Positions 54,053 to 63,209 of a DNA stretch of 64,000 nt are shown piece after piece. A program made the position numbers and the translations under genes. The notes below the pieces were generated by a model. It was not told the origin of the DNA and searched no databases. It saw nothing but the letters and a program-made list of their open reading frames with translations. How positions within the stretch are numbered: the stretch's first letter is position 1; each line of letters starts with the position of its first letter. The DNA is taken from the NCBI GenBank assembly GCA_019637075.1, contig JAHBWI010000002.1:496001-560000 (forward strand), written 5' to 3'. The DNA is from Nitrospiraceae bacterium (GTDB lineage: Bacteria > Nitrospirota > Nitrospiria > Nitrospirales > Nitrospiraceae).

Positions 54053-55360
54053 ATGTGCCTCTCACGGAGATTGCTGACTACCGCCGCGATTCTCGCGCTC
54101 TGGCTCTCCAGCTCTACGTACCTGACGTCCCCGACTCTCGCTTCCTCCACCATCTATAGCTACACCGACGAGGAAGGCGTTCCGACCTTCACCAACGAAC
54201 TCGAGTCGGTACCGGAAAAGTATCGCCAGCAGCTTTCGCAACGGGATCTCGAGACATCGGAAATCGCTGTCACGCCTCCGCCGGTCGTTGCCGCCGATCC
54301 CCCCATGCGTTCGGCCGAGGCGCGTACCGTGACGGCCAGCGGCGAGCATCGGATGGGCGACCATGACAACCGTACGGATGCGATTCGCCTCGCGTTGGAG
54401 GCAGCGAAGAAAGACGCGCTCGAGCAGGTGGCGACCTATGTGGAAAGCATTACCGAAGTGCGGGATCTGAATGTTACGCGGGACGATATCCGAAGCTATA
54501 CGGCCGGCATCGTGAAGGTGGTGGACCAGACGGTGAGCACGAGGCTAGAGCAGGACCAGGTCGTGATTCGCGTGGATCTCACGGCGGAGATCGACCCGCA
54601 TGAAGTGGTGCGGGCGATTGCCGCGCTCCGGGAGAATGAACAGGCTCGAAGTGAATTGTTGGCGCTCCGCGCCGAGACCGATCGGCTACAGGAACAGCTC
54701 GATGCCAACAACCGTGCCCTCGCCGCCGCTACCACTCCAAGCGACGTTCAACAGTACCAGGATCAGCGCCAGGACATGCTCGACCAGCTGCAGGCGAACG
54801 CGCTCCTTTCGCAGGCTTGGACGAGTTGGACCTACCCGACGCTGGGCTTCTACTCCTATCCTTGGTTCGGAGCTCCCGGCATCTACGGCCTGCTGCTCCA
54901 AGTGCAGCGCATCTATCCGCACCACAGCCATCTCCCGCTCGCGCAACGGACGATCACCGTCTACAACAATCCCGTCCCACCGGCGCAACCGCCGAGTTCG
55001 ACGCCGCCGGCACCGCGTCCGTCACTCTTAATGCCGCCTGTTCCGCACGTGTACCAACGCCCGGCTCCGCCGCTCTTGAACAGCCAGGGGCAACAGGCCA
55101 AGGTGGGTGACGCGGTGGTGATCCCGACGCCCCGATCCGTTCCTTCCGCTCCGCAATACACGCCGCAACCGCCGCCCTATCAGCTCCACCCCAACCATTT
55201 CTGGCGCCCCAGCCCGCCAAACGTCCGCACCACGCCGTCCAGCCCGCCGCAGGTCTCCTCGGCTGCGCCCCACCATTATAGTGGCCATCTCGGGCATGCA
55301 GGCGGAGGCCATTCGAGCGGAGGCAGCAGGTCCGGCGGAAGCCGCGGGGGGAGAAGATAG
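54053..55360 (+). CDS. DUF4124 exported protein with long Pro-rich tail
   Basis: 435 residues. Signal peptide (LLTTAAILALWLSSSTYLTSPTLA) and DUF4124 segment (STIYSYTDEEGVPTFTNELESVPEKY). A middle domain of about residues 85-200 (TVTASGEHRMGDHDNRTDAIRLALEAAKKDALEQVATYVES and VVIRVDLTAEIDP) resembles the LPP20/FlgT-N envelope domain. A coiled-coil follows (QARSELLALRAETDRLQEQLD), and then a long region rich in Pro and a tail of Gly/Ser/Arg repeats (GGSRSGGSRGGRR). GGGAGG precedes the ATG. The tail may bind cell-wall glycan or nucleic acid, but this is a guess. Confidence 0.85.
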   Translation: MCLSRRLLTTAAILALWLSSSTYLTSPTLASSTIYSYTDEEGVPTFTNELESVPEKYRQQLSQRDLETSEIAVTPPPVVAADPPMRSAEARTVTASGEHRMGDHDNRTDAIRLALEAAKKDALEQVATYVESITEVRDLNVTRDDIRSYTAGIVKVVDQTVSTRLEQDQVVIRVDLTAEIDPHEVVRAIAALRENEQARSELLALRAETDRLQEQLDANNRALAAATTPSDVQQYQDQRQDMLDQLQANALLSQAWTSWTYPTLGFYSYPWFGAPGIYGLLLQVQRIYPHHSHLPLAQRTITVYNNPVPPAQPPSSTPPAPRPSLLMPPVPHVYQRPAPPLLNSQGQQAKVGDAVVIPTPRSVPSAPQYTPQPPPYQLHPNHFWRPSPPNVRTTPSSPPQVSSAAPHHYSGHLGHAGGGHSSGGSRSGGSRGGRR

Positions 55361-55587
55361 CGGACGGCGTATACCCAATGGCACAAACGATGCCGCTCCG
55401 CGGTCTCTCGTCTCACGCACACGTGGTGATGCGTCATTCGAGGGCACGCGGAGTATCCCCTGATCCCAATTCCCTCGATATACGAACGACGAGATACGAG
55501 ATACCTCGCACCAGATTCGCCCATCCCACCCCCAGTCCCCCGGCTTGAGTAGCGTCCCTCAATCCTATATATGTAGAGAGTTACCCG

Positions 55588-55604
55588 GGAGGGTTCGAAC
55601 CTCC
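55588..55604 (-). other. tRNA T-arm-like sequence without a tRNA
   Basis: On the minus strand it reads GGAGG-TTCGAAC-CCTCC, a perfect five-pair T-arm with its loop. No matching acceptor or anticodon arms are found at the right distances. Possibly a relic of an integration (att) site or a chance palindrome. Confidence 0.35.
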
Positions 55605-55659
55605 CAGGGGGATTCCGCGCAGTAGGCCGATCACCGGACGGATTGAATGGAACAACCCC

Positions 55660-58600
55660 ATGGGCGTCCAAGAAACACTCGCCAGACTCCGTGCCGGGCT
55701 ACTCGACCTTTCGGATCGAAACCCGCTGCTGAACTTCAGCCACCCGCGCCATGCCTGTCTGGGTCTGGTCGGTGAGCGTCCCAACGAGCTGTACGCCCGC
55801 CTCCTGAACGGCGAAACTTTCTCCTTTCAGCCCGGCACCGTTGCGCAGAAGCCCGCGGCATCGCCCGACTGGCCGAAGGACAACGGCGGGCAACGCCAAC
55901 CCCGTCCGAACGGCGTGCTTCAAACCGCACACGACCGCGACGAACTCGCTCGCTTGCTCCGCCGCCTCCATCGACAGGCGGAAACGGTGGTCGAAGAAGC
56001 CGGCATCACCATGCTGTTCCTGGCCTTCGGCTTTTTGGAGTGGCACGATCCCGCGACCCCGAACAAACCGCTCTTGGCTCCCCTGCTCCTGCTGCCGGTT
56101 ACGCTCAAGAAGGCCTCGACGCATGAATCGCTCGGCTCGCTGAACTACAGCCTTGAATATTCCGGCGAGGAGATCGCCACCAACCTCGCCCTCGTCGAAC
56201 GCTTCATGCGGCTGGACCTTCACGTGCCGCCGGTCACGGACGAGGACGTGCCGGAACAGTATGTGGCCAAGATCGAGCAGCTGCCGGGGCTCGCGCCGGA
56301 CTGGCGGGTGCGGCGATGGCTCACGCTCAGCCTGCTTCCGGTGGGTGACGCCCTCGTTTATCGCGATCTGGATCAATCCCGCTGGTACGAGCCTCAGTCG
56401 TTCCTCGGCAACCAGCTCGTGCACGACTGGCTTGATGACCCGACCGGGACGCCGGCCACGGTTGAGCCCCCTGAATTTTCCGATCCATCCGACGAGAGCG
56501 GGCCGTCGACGCCCGTCATCTTCGAGGCAGATCCTTCGCAACAAGCCGTGCTCGACAGGGCCCGACAGGGGAGGAACCTGGTCGTTCAAGCCGCTCCCGG
56601 GACCGGCCGATCCCGCACCATCGCCAACCTCATCGCCGCAGCCATCTCCGGCGGGCAGTCTGTGCTGTACGTCGGCGCCAAACGCGCGGCCTTGGACCAT
56701 GTGCATCGCTTGCTGGCGGAAGCCGGATTCCAGGAATTCTGTTTCGACTTGCAGCGCCGCACCATCCGCACCGAGGCCCTGCTGCGCCTAATCGATCGGC
56801 GCATGCATCTCGTCTTGCCTCCGCCGGGCGAAGATCGTCTGGCCGACGCCGAACGGGAACAGCAAGAGCTGCAGGACGCACTGCGGGCCTATGCGGACGT
56901 CCTGGAACGCCCGGTCGACGGGGTGAAACGCTCGGTCGCCGAGGTCCTGTGGGAACGCGAGCTCTGCTTGCAAACCCACCCGAGCCTGCGGCCGCTTGAA
57001 GCCTCCCTCTGCCAATTGGAATGGACGCCGGACGACGGCTTCGACCTCGCGGAATTGCGGCGATGCACCACCCTGTTACAAAACCGGCTTGCCGCCTTGT
57101 TCGCCGCCTCGCCGCGCCTGAGCCATCACCCTTGGTATGGTGTGGATGTCGCGCCTTCGGAAGGCGAAATGACCGCGGCGTTGGAAGCAGGCAAGGCCGT
57201 GGTCGCGCAGGGTGAATCCCTCCAGGTCCTTACCGACAAGCTGCGCGATCTGCTCGGGGCGCCGGTCTTCACCAGGCAGGACGAGCTGCACCAGCTGGCC
57301 GAGTGGGACGGTGCCCTCCCCTCCGTCACGCCGTCAGCCGCACTGGAATTACTGGAAGCCTTGCGCGACGGGAACACCAGACGTCTCCTCGCTCAATTCA
57401 TTGCCGACCTCGAAGCGGTGGCCCAAGAACGGCAGACCCTTGCCTCCGACTTTCGCAACGTGCCGTCCGACGTCGATCGGATCGATCTCGCACCCTTGCG
57501 CGCGATCCGCGGCTCGAGTCTGGAAGGACTCCCGTTGGAACAGTTCGAATCTACCGTCGGCCTGCTCGAGGCGGTGGTGCACGATTTGCGGCTGGCGCGC
57601 GAAGCGCTTCAGGGCGCAGTGGAGGGAATCGGCCTGCCGGGGCCGATCACGCTGCCGTTCGTCGAAAGTTTCGACCAGACCATCTCGCTGTTGATCGAGG
57701 TGCCGTTCGATCTGCTGCGCATGCGCGACCCAATTTTGCTCGACGATTCGCTCGCCGCGACCCGCAGGGATGGGACCGAACGGGGCATCCACCTCCAGGA
57801 GCGCCGGCGGATGTTGTCGCTCGAATACCTGATCCCCGTCGACCACGACCTGGACGAGCTGGAAGCCCATGCGAAAGCGCTCCAAGGCACGGCCGCGATG
57901 GCACGTCTCTACAGCGGCGCCTATCGCCGAGCCCGCCGCTTCTATATGGAGGTGCATCAAGGGGGAAAGGCCGCCGATTCGCGCGTGATGGCTGATGCCC
58001 TGTGGGACCTTCGCGACCATTTGGAATTGAGCCAGCGGTTTGCGGCCCAGCCGGACTATCAGCAGGCCTTCGGAAACAATTTTCGTGGGATCGACACGCC
58101 GTTCCAACAGGTCGCCGCGCTGGAATCCTGGTATGCGAAGGCCCGGGCGCTGCTTGAGGGAACCGGCGGGCCCGCGCAGGATTTCTTGAACCTGCTCATC
58201 CAGGGCCCGATCGAGCACCTCGCGACGCTGCGTCGTTGGGCTGAAACGAACGGCCGTTCACTGCAGATGATCCGGTCCCTCAAGTCGCACCTGATGAAGG
58301 CGGTTGAGCGCGATCCCGACCATCCCCTCGACGTCACGCGCGGGACGTTGGACGGCCTGGCCGACGCACTTCGGCTCCGCATCACCACCCTGCAGACCGT
58401 CTTGGCGACGGCGCAACAATTGTCGCTCGCGCCCACCAAAGCCGTCGCGGAGGTGCCGGCGCTGCTGCGGAAACTCGACACCTATCGAAAGCAAGACGCA
58501 CGCATCGTCGGCAACCGGACAATGGAGCGGCTGCTCGGCACGTCGTTCGCAGGAAGCCGGACGCCGATCCCGCCGCTCCAGGACGCGTTGGCGTGGAGCC

Positions 58601-60636
58601 AACAGGCCGCCGCGCTGCCGCTGCCGCCCGAGATCAGCAGCTGGCTGTTCTCCCGTGACTACCCGGCCCGGCGCGCCGCGATCGAACCGGTGCTGATCCA
58701 ACTTCGCGCCGCAGCCTCGACCTGGCATCACGCCTGGACGACGTTCGCGGGTCTGCTGCGGCTGAATCTCGCCAACTGGACCGCCGAGGAGTTGCCTGCC
58801 TCCTTATCCGTCCTGCTCGAGCGAACGAAGCGAGCGATCGCCCACTCGGAGCGCTTACGCGACTGGGTGGAATATCTCAGGGCAGTCGAAGCCTTGGCGC
58901 ATGAGGGAGGCCCGCAGATCAGGCCCTTGCTCGAAGCGGGCGAGCTGCCGCTCGAGGACGTGCCTCACGCGTTCGAGCTGTTCGTCTGGAACTCGCTGGC
59001 GCAGTCATTGGCCGAGCAACACTCTGAACTGCGCGATTTCGACTCGATCGAACAGGAACGCCTCCAGGAACAGGCGGCCGAAGGAGCCCGATCGCTCCTG
59101 CTCACGCACCGCCGCTACATGCGATACAAGACGCAACGCCCCCTGCCTGCCGGTAACGCCGAAGGAGCGGTGAAGAGTTGGACCGATCGCGGCCTGCTCA
59201 CGCGGGCTATCGCAGGCGACGCGCCCCAAATCGGCGTCCGGCAACTGTTCTCGCAAGCCGGTTCCGCCCTCGCCGCCCTGTGGCCCTGTCATCTGATGAG
59301 CCCGCTGGCGGTGGCGCAGTACCTTCCCTCAGGCCGACCGACATTCGATCTCGTGATCATCGATGAAGCCACCAGGCTCCGCCCGGTCGAGGTGATCGGG
59401 GCGATGGCCAGAGCCAAGCAAGCGGTGCTGTTCGGCGATAGCCGCCGCCTTGCTCCGACCTCCTCGGCCGACCTGTTCGTGCAGTCGGAGATCGAAGAGG
59501 AGGAGCAGGCTTCTCTCGCCGCTCCGGACACGGCCGCAGCCTGGGGCGAAATCCGTTATGGGCAAGCCCTCAGCCTCAGCCGGCATGACCGCAGCCGGCA
59601 TGACAGTCTTATGGCCTTCTCCAACCGCACCTTCTACGACAATGCGCTGACGGTCGCCCCAAGCCCGGCACCGGACGACCGAACGTTTGGCGTGACCTGC
59701 CACGTCATCGAACAAGGATGCTACCGCGATGGGAGCAACCTGCCCGAGGCGGAAGCGATCGTGGAGGCGGCCATCCGCCATGCGGCGGACCAGCCAGACT
59801 TGAGCCTCGGCATCGTGGTCTGCACCGTGCGGCAACAAGAGCTGATTCAGGATCTGTTGGATCGCCGCCTTGATCAGGATCGCACGCTCCGCGCATTCAT
59901 CGCCGCCCATGAGCGAACCCCGGGCTCGCTATTCGTCAAAACCATCGAACGCGCCCAGCGCGAGGTGCGGGACGTCGTGCTGGTGTCGCTGACTTACGGG
60001 CGCGACATCGATGGCGGTTTCCGCTCTCATTTCGGCTCTCTCGAAGGTCCGCAGGGACCACGGTATCTGAACGTGCTCGCCACCAGCGCTTCGCAGCGGT
60101 TGGAGATCTTCTGCTCCTTCGATCCAGCCGCGTTGGATGAACGCACGTTGGCCGCGCGAGGAGCCGGCTCATTGAAACCCTTTCTCCGCTATGCCGTCAC
60201 GCGCGCGATGCGGCCCATCCAAGACGAAGCGATATCCTCCGAAAGCCCGCTCACCCAGGCGATCACCCGCGCGCTGAACGCCCGCGGCTTCTCGGTCGAC
60301 TCGCGCGTGGGACCGGTCGATTGCCGTGTTGATCTAGCCGTACGGCACCCGGATCTGCCGGGGCGGTATCTCCTGGGCTTGCTGTGCGATGCGCCGTCGG
60401 TTGACGGCGGGGGACGGGGAGTCTCGACGGATCGCAGCAGGGAAGAGCGGCTGCGCGGGCTTGGATGGGCGCTCCATCGCATTTGGTCCGCCGCCTGGTA
60501 CCAAGACCCGCACTACGAGGCAGACCGGCTACTCGCGACCCTGCGCACCCTGTTGGAACAAGAAAGCGACAGCCGACCCGCGCCGTCCCCACTGGTCAGC
60601 CCCGGTATGCCGCTCCACGACCCGGACTTGGAATAA
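55660..60636 (+). CDS. DUF4011 SF1-helicase/Vsr-like protein with eroded catalytic motifs
   Basis: 1658 residues, intact frame. The N-terminus is DUF4011-like (ARLRAGLLDLSDRNPLLNF). The helicase region has a Walker A A312-PGTG-R317-SRT with Arg instead of the family Lys, Walker B LVIIDEAT (1231-1238), motif III GDSRRLAPTS (1259-1268), SLSRHDRSRHDSLMAFSN (motif IV region), motif V replaced by ERAQREVRD (1430-1438) and motif VI TSAS (1475-1478) where relatives have TRAR. The C-terminal Vsr/DUF559-like domain keeps Asp1558 but has LLCDA (1574-1578) in place of the IECDG of relatives, losing the Glu. Architecture is that of large helicase-nucleases seen in defence loci. The erosion suggests a non-catalytic role or a decaying gene. 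No partner gene nearby. Confidence 0.9.
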   Translation: MGVQETLARLRAGLLDLSDRNPLLNFSHPRHACLGLVGERPNELYARLLNGETFSFQPGTVAQKPAASPDWPKDNGGQRQPRPNGVLQTAHDRDELARLLRRLHRQAETVVEEAGITMLFLAFGFLEWHDPATPNKPLLAPLLLLPVTLKKASTHESLGSLNYSLEYSGEEIATNLALVERFMRLDLHVPPVTDEDVPEQYVAKIEQLPGLAPDWRVRRWLTLSLLPVGDALVYRDLDQSRWYEPQSFLGNQLVHDWLDDPTGTPATVEPPEFSDPSDESGPSTPVIFEADPSQQAVLDRARQGRNLVVQAAPGTGRSRTIANLIAAAISGGQSVLYVGAKRAALDHVHRLLAEAGFQEFCFDLQRRTIRTEALLRLIDRRMHLVLPPPGEDRLADAEREQQELQDALRAYADVLERPVDGVKRSVAEVLWERELCLQTHPSLRPLEASLCQLEWTPDDGFDLAELRRCTTLLQNRLAALFAASPRLSHHPWYGVDVAPSEGEMTAALEAGKAVVAQGESLQVLTDKLRDLLGAPVFTRQDELHQLAEWDGALPSVTPSAALELLEALRDGNTRRLLAQFIADLEAVAQERQTLASDFRNVPSDVDRIDLAPLRAIRGSSLEGLPLEQFESTVGLLEAVVHDLRLAREALQGAVEGIGLPGPITLPFVESFDQTISLLIEVPFDLLRMRDPILLDDSLAATRRDGTERGIHLQERRRMLSLEYLIPVDHDLDELEAHAKALQGTAAMARLYSGAYRRARRFYMEVHQGGKAADSRVMADALWDLRDHLELSQRFAAQPDYQQAFGNNFRGIDTPFQQVAALESWYAKARALLEGTGGPAQDFLNLLIQGPIEHLATLRRWAETNGRSLQMIRSLKSHLMKAVERDPDHPLDVTRGTLDGLADALRLRITTLQTVLATAQQLSLAPTKAVAEVPALLRKLDTYRKQDARIVGNRTMERLLGTSFAGSRTPIPPLQDALAWSQQAAALPLPPEISSWLFSRDYPARRAAIEPVLIQLRAAASTWHHAWTTFAGLLRLNLANWTAEELPASLSVLLERTKRAIAHSERLRDWVEYLRAVEALAHEGGPQIRPLLEAGELPLEDVPHAFELFVWNSLAQSLAEQHSELRDFDSIEQERLQEQAAEGARSLLLTHRRYMRYKTQRPLPAGNAEGAVKSWTDRGLLTRAIAGDAPQIGVRQLFSQAGSALAALWPCHLMSPLAVAQYLPSGRPTFDLVIIDEATRLRPVEVIGAMARAKQAVLFGDSRRLAPTSSADLFVQSEIEEEEQASLAAPDTAAAWGEIRYGQALSLSRHDRSRHDSLMAFSNRTFYDNALTVAPSPAPDDRTFGVTCHVIEQGCYRDGSNLPEAEAIVEAAIRHAADQPDLSLGIVVCTVRQQELIQDLLDRRLDQDRTLRAFIAAHERTPGSLFVKTIERAQREVRDVVLVSLTYGRDIDGGFRSHFGSLEGPQGPRYLNVLATSASQRLEIFCSFDPAALDERTLAARGAGSLKPFLRYAVTRAMRPIQDEAISSESPLTQAITRALNARGFSVDSRVGPVDCRVDLAVRHPDLPGRYLLGLLCDAPSVDGGGRGVSTDRSREERLRGLGWALHRIWSAAWYQDPHYEADRLLATLRTLLEQESDSRPAPSPLVSPGMPLHDPDLE

Positions 60637-60762: not shown

Positions 60763-61656
60763 ATGGCCACGACCTTCTCCCGCACGATTCGCACCCCGCG
60801 GCGGCGACCGCGCAGGGGCCGTCGCATGGCCGCAGGATTTCGCCGCGGCCTCCGCACGCGCTGGCACCTGTTCCGGGCCGCCCTCGCCGCCTTGTGGGCC
60901 TCGCCTGCCGCCATCCGCATTCCGGCCGTGACCATGCTGATCGTGCTGGTCTGGCTGGGAGCGAACTGGGCCTACCATGCCGCGCAGAAACCGACCGAAG
61001 TGTTTTTTCCGCTGGACAACTCGTTGGATAAGAGCCCGCGCGAAACCTGGCGGCAATACGGCCCGCTGTTCCGCGAGCATGCGACCTCCTCCGTGACGCC
61101 AGAACTACTGGCGGCGCTGGCCCAGGTCGAAGGCGGCGGCAATCCGGTGGCACGCACCTATTGGCGCTGGCGATCGACGTGGAATCCCTTTGAGTGGTAT
61201 CGCCCGGCATCCAGCGCGGTCGGAATGTATCAAATGACCGACGGCACGTTCCGCGCCGCCAAACGCTATTGCGTCCATAACCACGCGGTTGTGGAGGACG
61301 GACCGTGGCATGACCTCGAATCCTGCTGGTTCAACAGCCTGTACACGCGAGTGCTGCCGAGCCATTCCATCGAACTGACGGCCGCCTCGCTCGACCGTGA
61401 CATCGCCTCTGCGCTCGGCGTGCGCCGTGGCGCCGCCGGGGTGCGACAGAAGCAGGACTTAGCCGCCCTGATCCATCTCTGCGGAGCCGGGGCGGGGCGG
61501 GATTTTGCGGCCAGAGGATTCCGCCTGACGCCCCATCAGAAATGCGGCGACCATGATGTGGCCGCCTATCTCGGCCAGGTGCGTGGCCTGACGCAGCAGT
61601 TCACCAGGCTCGCGGCCGGAGCAGGCGGCGAACCCACGCTGATTAGGGCTCGCTGA
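60763..61656 (+). CDS. Lytic transglycosylase (SLT domain)
   Basis: 297 residues. A basic N-terminus (RTIRTPRRRPRRGRRM), one membrane anchor (IPAVTMLIVLVWLGANWAYHA at about 65-85) and an SLT domain: LLAALAQVEGGGNPVARTYW with the catalytic Glu, then SSAVGMYQMTDGTFRAAKRY. It cleaves the peptidoglycan glycan strand with formation of a 1,6-anhydro end. The domain carries several Cys (CVHNH, ESCWFN, HLCGAG), which may form disulfides. The start has a weak ribosome site. Confidence 0.88.
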   Translation: MATTFSRTIRTPRRRPRRGRRMAAGFRRGLRTRWHLFRAALAALWASPAAIRIPAVTMLIVLVWLGANWAYHAAQKPTEVFFPLDNSLDKSPRETWRQYGPLFREHATSSVTPELLAALAQVEGGGNPVARTYWRWRSTWNPFEWYRPASSAVGMYQMTDGTFRAAKRYCVHNHAVVEDGPWHDLESCWFNSLYTRVLPSHSIELTAASLDRDIASALGVRRGAAGVRQKQDLAALIHLCGAGAGRDFAARGFRLTPHQKCGDHDVAAYLGQVRGLTQQFTRLAAGAGGEPTLIRAR

Positions 61657-61704: not shown

Positions 61705-63209
61705 ATGTCTACTGTCACAATGTGGCACACCCTCCTCCGTAGCGCACTTCGCACGCTCATCACGCTCGCTCTGCTCGGGAAACCAACCAGTCCGGCGACA
61801 GCCTTCGCCGAATTGCCGTCAGGACCCGAAGCGGCTCCGATCGCTTCGAACGACATACAGGGCCCCCCGCATCGCCTGAACCGACCCCGGCCTCACAGCG
61901 TCTTGACTGGGATACCGGTCGTGGTCGCAGCTATGTCATTCCCGCCGCCGAAGTACTGACCTATATCTTCCTGCTGAACCAGTACGATCGCCATTTCGTC
62001 GAACCTCGGGAAGACTATCGAACCAGCGGCAGTACCATTCGTCAGCACCTCACCGATTCGAAGTGGGTCATCGACAACGATCAATTCAAGGTCAACCAGT
62101 TCCTGCACCCCTACGGCGGCAGCGTGTATTACGGCTTGGCCCGATCTTCAGGATTGTCCTTCTGGGAATCCTTTCTCTACAGCACGGCAGGGAGCTTCGC
62201 CTGGGAAATCGCAGGGGAACGGACCAACCCTTCGATCAACGACATGATCGCCACCCCGATCGGAGGCAGCCTGCTGGGAGAGGCACTGTTCCGCATGGCC
62301 GGCCTGGTTCTCGAAACGGACGACGGTCGTCCCGGCTTCGTTCGCGAAGCGGCCGCGGCCGCAATCTCGCCCCCAACCGGATTCAACCGTTTGGTCTTCG
62401 GCCATCGCTTCGATGCGGTGTTTCCCAGCTACCACCCTGCCACGTTCTTCAGGTTGGAAGCCGGCGGCACGCTGACCTCCAGCAGCCACAACGTCTCGTC
62501 GAGCGTAACCGAACATGGTGCCGTTGGCGATCTGACGTTGACCTATGGATTGCCCGGCAAATCCGGCTACCACTATTCGCGCCCCTTCGACTATTTCGAT
62601 TTCCACGTCACCGCCGTCACGGCGAACACGCTGGAAAGTCTTAACACCCGTGGGCTCCTGCTGGGGACCACCTACGCATCGGGGAATGACACGCGGGGGC
62701 TGTGGGGTTTGTTCGGCAGCTACGACTACATCTCGCCGCAAGTATTTCGGGTGTCGAGTACCGCGCTGTCGCTTGGTACCGTCTGGCAAACCTGGCTGTC
62801 CGATGACATTGCGCTCCAAGGGACCGCACTGGGCGGCGCAGGGTACGGTGCGGCCGACAGCATTCAGCGCAAAGAGGAGCGGGACTATCACTACGGCATG
62901 ACCCCGCAGGCGCTGCTCGCGCTGCGGCTCATCTTCGGCAACCGGGTCATGATCGACTTTACGGGGCGAGAATACTATGTGAGCCGGGTGCTCTCACCGG
63001 AAGGCAACGGCCAGGAAAACATCATGCGGGGCGATGCGGCGTTCACGCTGCGGATCTTCGACCGCCACGGCATCGCCGTCCGGTATGCCGTGGCACAGCG
63101 AAACGCCGGCTATCCGAGCGTCGAATATCGGAATCAGACGGTCAGCACGGTCAGCTTGATGTATGTACTGTTGGGGTCGTCGGGATTCGGCGCGGTGGAG
63201 TGGCGCTGA
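61705..63209 (+). pseudogene. DUF3943 exported protein gene, split by a frameshift
   Basis: The first part (61705 to about 61862) encodes a signal peptide (HTLLRSALRTLITLALLGK). The rest continues in the -1 frame: DWDTGRGRSYVIPAAEV, NDQFKVNQFLHPYGGSVYYGLARSSGLSFWES, and the barrel part to 63209, which together make a complete DUF3943 protein. The shift happens at the six-C tract at 61863-61868, where one more C would restore the frame. In the present reading the first frame stops at 61959. Explanations are a sequencing error, phase variation or ribosomal slippage (C CCC CCG fits a -1 site). DUF3943 proteins are outer-membrane proteins of unknown function. Confidence 0.8.

Follow-up and report, generated by a model that had tools for sequence, protein, structure and literature searches.

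Among described systems, the closest to the gene considered here are those of the Hhe/PDC-S37 type, which combine a DUF4011 domain, an SF1 helicase and an MTES_1575 nuclease. Hhe-like proteins are a known family of anti-phage helicase-nucleases (Gao Hhe), and Hhe/PDC-S37-type genes usually stand alone. To our knowledge, DUF4011 itself has no known function.

The window analysed is a stretch of 64,000 nucleotides from a Nitrospiraceae bacterium. Near its end lies a single unbroken frame of 1658 codons, running from ATG to stop (Table 1). Pfam recognises DUF4011 (E 9e-36), MTES_1575 (7e-21) and AAA_11 in the one chain, all above cut-off, while the best profile matches in PADLOC are to PDC-S37 (842 bits) and Hhe (544 bits). 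An earlier note on this DNA had proposed a long intact frame encoding a DUF4011 helicase/nuclease, and both proposals are borne out by the frame and by the Pfam, PADLOC and NCBIfam matches. Domain order, similar length and occurrence as a lone gene are all shared with Hhe/PDC-S37. Nevertheless, the protein is only 27-30% identical to that type, has lost helicase and nuclease catalytic residues, and scores 852 bits against the NCBIfam Hhe model (NF042953), whose cut-off is 2000 bits, so that by the curated cut-off it is a relative of Hhe and not Hhe itself. A second profile match, of 754 bits and best over the C-terminal half, is to the anti-phage protein ProA (NF058533), but this too falls below its cut-off of 1500 bits and the catalytic residues are lost.

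Table 1. Positions in the window of the gene, its domains and motifs, and its flanking genes.
Feature	Position	Strand	Basis
1658-aa DUF4011/SF1 helicase/MTES_1575 nuclease-fold protein, Hhe/PDC-S37 type, predicted inactive	55660..60636	+	Open frame; Pfam/PADLOC/NCBIfam
DUF4011 domain, aa 14-181, 123.6 bits, conserved at family level	55699..56202	+	Pfam; 0/14 conserved columns lost; pLDDT mostly >90
Degenerate Walker A, aa 311-320, AAPGTGRSRT, K317R	56590..56619	+	Alignment, about 100 relatives
Walker B, aa 1231-1239, LVIIDEATR; DE kept, next S-Q changed	59350..59376	+	Alignment
Degenerate motif III, aa 1257-1267, LFGDSRRLAPT, Q1263R	59428..59460	+	Alignment
Degenerate motif V, aa 1425-1441, FVKTIERAQREVRDVVL	59932..59982	+	Alignment
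Degenerate motif VI, aa 1466-1481, GPRYLNVLATSASQRL, R1476S	60055..60102	+	Alignment
MTES_1575 (Vsr-like PD-(D/E)XK) nuclease, aa 1533-1628; ECDG Glu (E1575L) and His (H1582D) lost	60256..60543	+	Pfam, 74.5 bits; alignment
Upstream flank: DUF4124 gene, core gene of the bacterial family	54053..55360	+	Comparison with related genomes
Downstream flank: SLT transglycosylase gene, core gene of the bacterial family	60763..61656	+	Comparison with related genomes

To compare catalytic residues, the protein was aligned with about 100 relatives drawn from many phyla, and 20 more loci were added. Among the relatives these residues are nearly invariant, and at the helicase sites only the 1658-aa protein departs. 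The family Walker A sequence GPPGTGKSQT has become AAPGTGRSRT, GDPKQLPPT of motif III is now GDSRRLAPT (with P1265A beside the loss of Gln), ENVQGDERD of motif V is ERAQREVRD (G1434R/D1435E/E1436V) and the TRA or SRA of motif VI is TSA. Hence the Walker A Lys, motif III Gln and motif VI Arg of Hhe/PDC-S37 are all replaced, as are the nuclease Glu and His, where ECDGATYH reads LCDAPSVD (G1578A and Y1581V being the further changes). Motif Ia (EKMAALE to AKRAALD), motif IV (WHYRS to RHDRS) and two other nuclease stretches (ARDRDR to STDRSR and STDW to SAAW) are also altered. What is kept in the helicase is the Walker B DE pair (1235-1236), the Q-motif residues D291, S293 and Q294, R1311 and Q1433; the nuclease keeps D1558, C1576 and D1577. 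The substitutions listed in the earlier note for Walker A, motifs V and VI and the nuclease are thus real when set against about 100 relatives; its statement that Walker B and motif III are intact holds for the DE of the former but not for the latter.

Two Hhe-type relatives (L169:970-6480 and L108:1-3837) have Gln in place of the nuclease ECDG Glu, while such helicase motifs as are present in them are intact. Partial nuclease loss has therefore occurred elsewhere, and the losses in these two are probably independent.

The changes are unevenly distributed along the chain. A set of 138 columns is conserved in at least 95% of 81 relatives. The 1658-aa protein departs from the family at 43 of them, compared with 12 for the next usable relative and a median of one; L121 was treated as an outlier, since its count of 36 reflects an N-terminal part that is absent or misaligned. 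None of the changes falls among the 14 conserved columns of residues 1-300 (DUF4011 and linker; nine before residue 200 and five between 200 and 300), whereas the catalytic parts have lost 43 of 124 (Fisher P 0.005), a contrast in which the N-terminal side comprises few positions. Domain scores follow the same division. That of DUF4011 lies within the 111-143 bits of enzymatically intact or nearly intact relatives, but that of MTES_1575 is well short of the 114-127 bits seen where the nuclease domain is full, L108 with its degenerate nuclease scoring 67. AAA_12, present in all the relatives compared, was undetected by Pfam in the 1658-aa protein. Mean identity of the N-terminal block to 80 relatives is 0.311, inside the range of the relatives' own means (from 0.282, average 0.365), while the four catalytic blocks, at 0.334, 0.405, 0.330 and 0.334, lie below every one of the 80 relatives' means (minima 0.421, 0.492, 0.389 and 0.436). 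In the tree, the terminal branch leading to the protein has a length of 1.67, the next longest being 0.78.

Simple decay of the gene is unlikely. In a neutral simulation starting from the gene itself and run 30 times until 31% of codons had changed residue, matching the share of conserved columns lost, a mean of 18.8 stop codons appeared (minimum 13); the gene has none. Its GC contents at the three codon positions (0.71/0.47/0.78) are steady along the whole length and resemble those of neighbouring genes. Moreover, 18 of the 43 changes, K317R (CGA) and E1575L (CTG) included, lie two or three nucleotide substitutions away from every codon for the family residue, and so are not single sequencing errors. 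Taken together, these three observations argue against slow neutral decay; the simulation is compatible with a gene that was active for a long time and then lost these residues quickly or recently under positive selection, and gives no date. The frame has thus been kept while catalytic residues were lost. Of the earlier suggestion that the protein is used for binding and not for catalysis, the selective catalytic loss and a frame preserved beyond what simple decay would leave have stood, and are consistent with a binding-only role, whether as decoy, scaffold or regulator, but the conserved subclade that might have accompanied them has not appeared.

Indeed, no such subclade sharing the substitutions, as the earlier note had proposed to look for, is present among the about 100 relatives or among the 20 added loci, which belong to the same phylum as L056, itself a nearer relative than most. 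Full-length relatives reach about 30% identity at most: 28-29% in the organism's own bacterial family, 29.6% for the best on plasmids, 26.8% for the one matching phage record and mostly 27-30% in the genome collection, where segments score higher. In the phylum of L056 identity rises to 40% over the C-terminal third. No relative was retrieved when 84,980 genomes were scanned by peptide pattern with the 1658-aa protein, or when IMG/VR was scanned with the whole protein and two segments, and alignment-based scans retrieved distant members only, although some collections may omit the source genome or one very near to it. No close relative or ortholog with the same changes was found in 175 genomes of the family, 270 of the class, 396 of the phylum, 395 of L056's phylum or the collections scanned, and the form lacking the catalytic residues is known from one genome, the main weakness of the case, so that the evidence for purifying selection on it is indirect. 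Elsewhere, one DUF4011 member (L043:2407-7716, G185:C40) is split between two adjacent frames of 889 and 880 aa and is probably a broken gene.

Both flanking genes, DUF4124 and SLT, occur widely in the bacterial family. In 11 related genomes where the two are adjacent, the matches are separated by 137-176 bp, against 5405 bp here, indicating that a single gene has been inserted between two core genes; in two further genomes the distance is 705 and 1637 bp. Such an insertion on an 819-kb contig argues against contamination. No flanking direct repeats or other mark of a mobile element were recognised at the insertion, and a sigma-70 scan found no promoter for the gene. A palindrome upstream of it (GGGAGGGTTCGAACCTCCC, 55584-55609) resembles a tRNA T-arm; as a candidate tRNA or att-like site it was rejected, having no tRNA or Rfam call and being unique in the genome. 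A defence island was likewise rejected, the neighbours being ordinary core genes with weak or partial PADLOC matches in those tested. A defence context, raised as a possibility in the earlier note, draws on family membership and not on the neighbourhood, and the absence of companion genes that it remarked upon, while true of the locus, carries little meaning in a DUF4011/Hhe-type family where a lone gene is normal. Further downstream, a DUF3943 gene (61720-63209) aligns with a relative in one frame from position 61857 onwards, and its N-terminal part matches weakly (37%) in another frame (61720-61905), which could reflect a frameshift or a divergent start.

The N-terminal 425 residues were modelled with a mean pLDDT of 83.8, and this model has no match in the PDB at E <= 0.001. 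The model of the C-terminal 619 residues (mean pLDDT 78.9, helicase lobe 2 mostly 87-96) best matches Dna2, IGHMBP2 and Upf1, with E about 1e-9. The C-terminal half is thus predicted still to fold, albeit from alignments, made without two plasmid-derived relatives, that hold intact relatives and so pull the model toward the family fold.

On balance we lean towards a stand-alone Hhe-type gene, acquired horizontally, that has turned into a pseudoenzyme and is kept under selection for binding. Directly seen are the lost residues and where they lie, the unbroken frame and the insertion site; inactivity, binding of a ligand and any part in defence are inferred. In such a protein the DUF4011 module, still held to the family pattern, would recognise its usual ligand, whether a DNA structure or a partner, and the helicase and nuclease folds would persist as inert clamps or scaffolds. 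With K317R but the Walker B and Q-motif residues retained, ATP might at most be bound, without hydrolysis; in RAD51 the K133R mutant binds ATP and is defective in hydrolysis (PMC3155514). Without the Gln of motif III, the Arg of motif VI and the Glu and His of the nuclease, the protein would neither translocate nor cut. By analogy, the nearest mechanistic precedent may be RecC, whose catalytically dead nuclease-like domain, retained within a DNA-processing protein, guides single-stranded DNA (PMC1185551); RecC, however, is a subunit of RecBCD whereas the 1658-aa protein has no known partner. Utp25 is a pseudohelicase that keeps the helicase fold with dispensable helicase motifs, but it is SF2 DEAD-box-like and acts in eukaryotic ribosome assembly (PMC9539457).

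Other readings have to be weighed against this. Under relaxed selection, a once-active Hhe gene would be in early decay with its frame unbroken so far by chance: the changes are common to no relative, the gene is the longest branch in the tree, identity is lowered throughout the catalytic blocks and not just at active residues, and the insertion is seen in a single genome. Even so, 1658 codons without a stop or frameshift where about 19 stops are expected, the full retention of N-terminal conserved positions, codon-position GC retained from end to end and the many changes needing at least two substitutions make this unlikely. A decoy or dominant-negative protein, mimicking active Hhe to absorb phage-encoded inhibitors or to poison incoming Hhe-type helicase-nuclease complexes, would fit the retention of the N-terminal module and overall architecture alongside the loss of catalysis. 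We consider it rather improbable, since the genome yielded no other DUF4011 protein that it could guard or inhibit and we know of no Hhe inhibitor.

That the protein remains enzymatic by means of unconventional residues, for instance hydrolysing ATP through Arg317 and cutting from a shifted nuclease site, would fit the retained Walker B DE, Q-motif residues, R1311, D1558 and D1577, but is quite improbable given the joint disappearance of Gln from motif III, Arg from motif VI, Gly-Asp-Glu from motif V and both Glu and His from the nuclease. Finally, it might serve, as RecC does RecB, as non-catalytic subunit of the genome's own SF1 helicase-MTES_1575 nuclease, a 1630-aa protein (L135:5822-10711; G000:C1:425822-430711) with intact Walker A, Walker B, motif V and ECDG and with Pfam helicase and nuclease domains. 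That gene is nevertheless far off on a different contig, and its product has no DUF4011 match and is a distant relative only (38% over 96 aa); the partnership is speculative and we give it very little credence.

Returning to the binding pseudoenzyme, a bolder version is that this stand-alone pseudo-helicase/pseudo-nuclease defends, or counters defence, by binding only, with DUF4011 as an autonomous recognition module and the gene as a non-catalytic branch of the family; this we put forward tentatively, as possible but doubtful. The Hhe-type family is known as enzymes, and if the inactive form is functional, Hhe-type defence would include a non-catalytic branch. A DUF4011 domain held at family level beside a dead helicase and nuclease may represent recognition separated from catalysis, and would allow the ligand of DUF4011 to be asked about directly.
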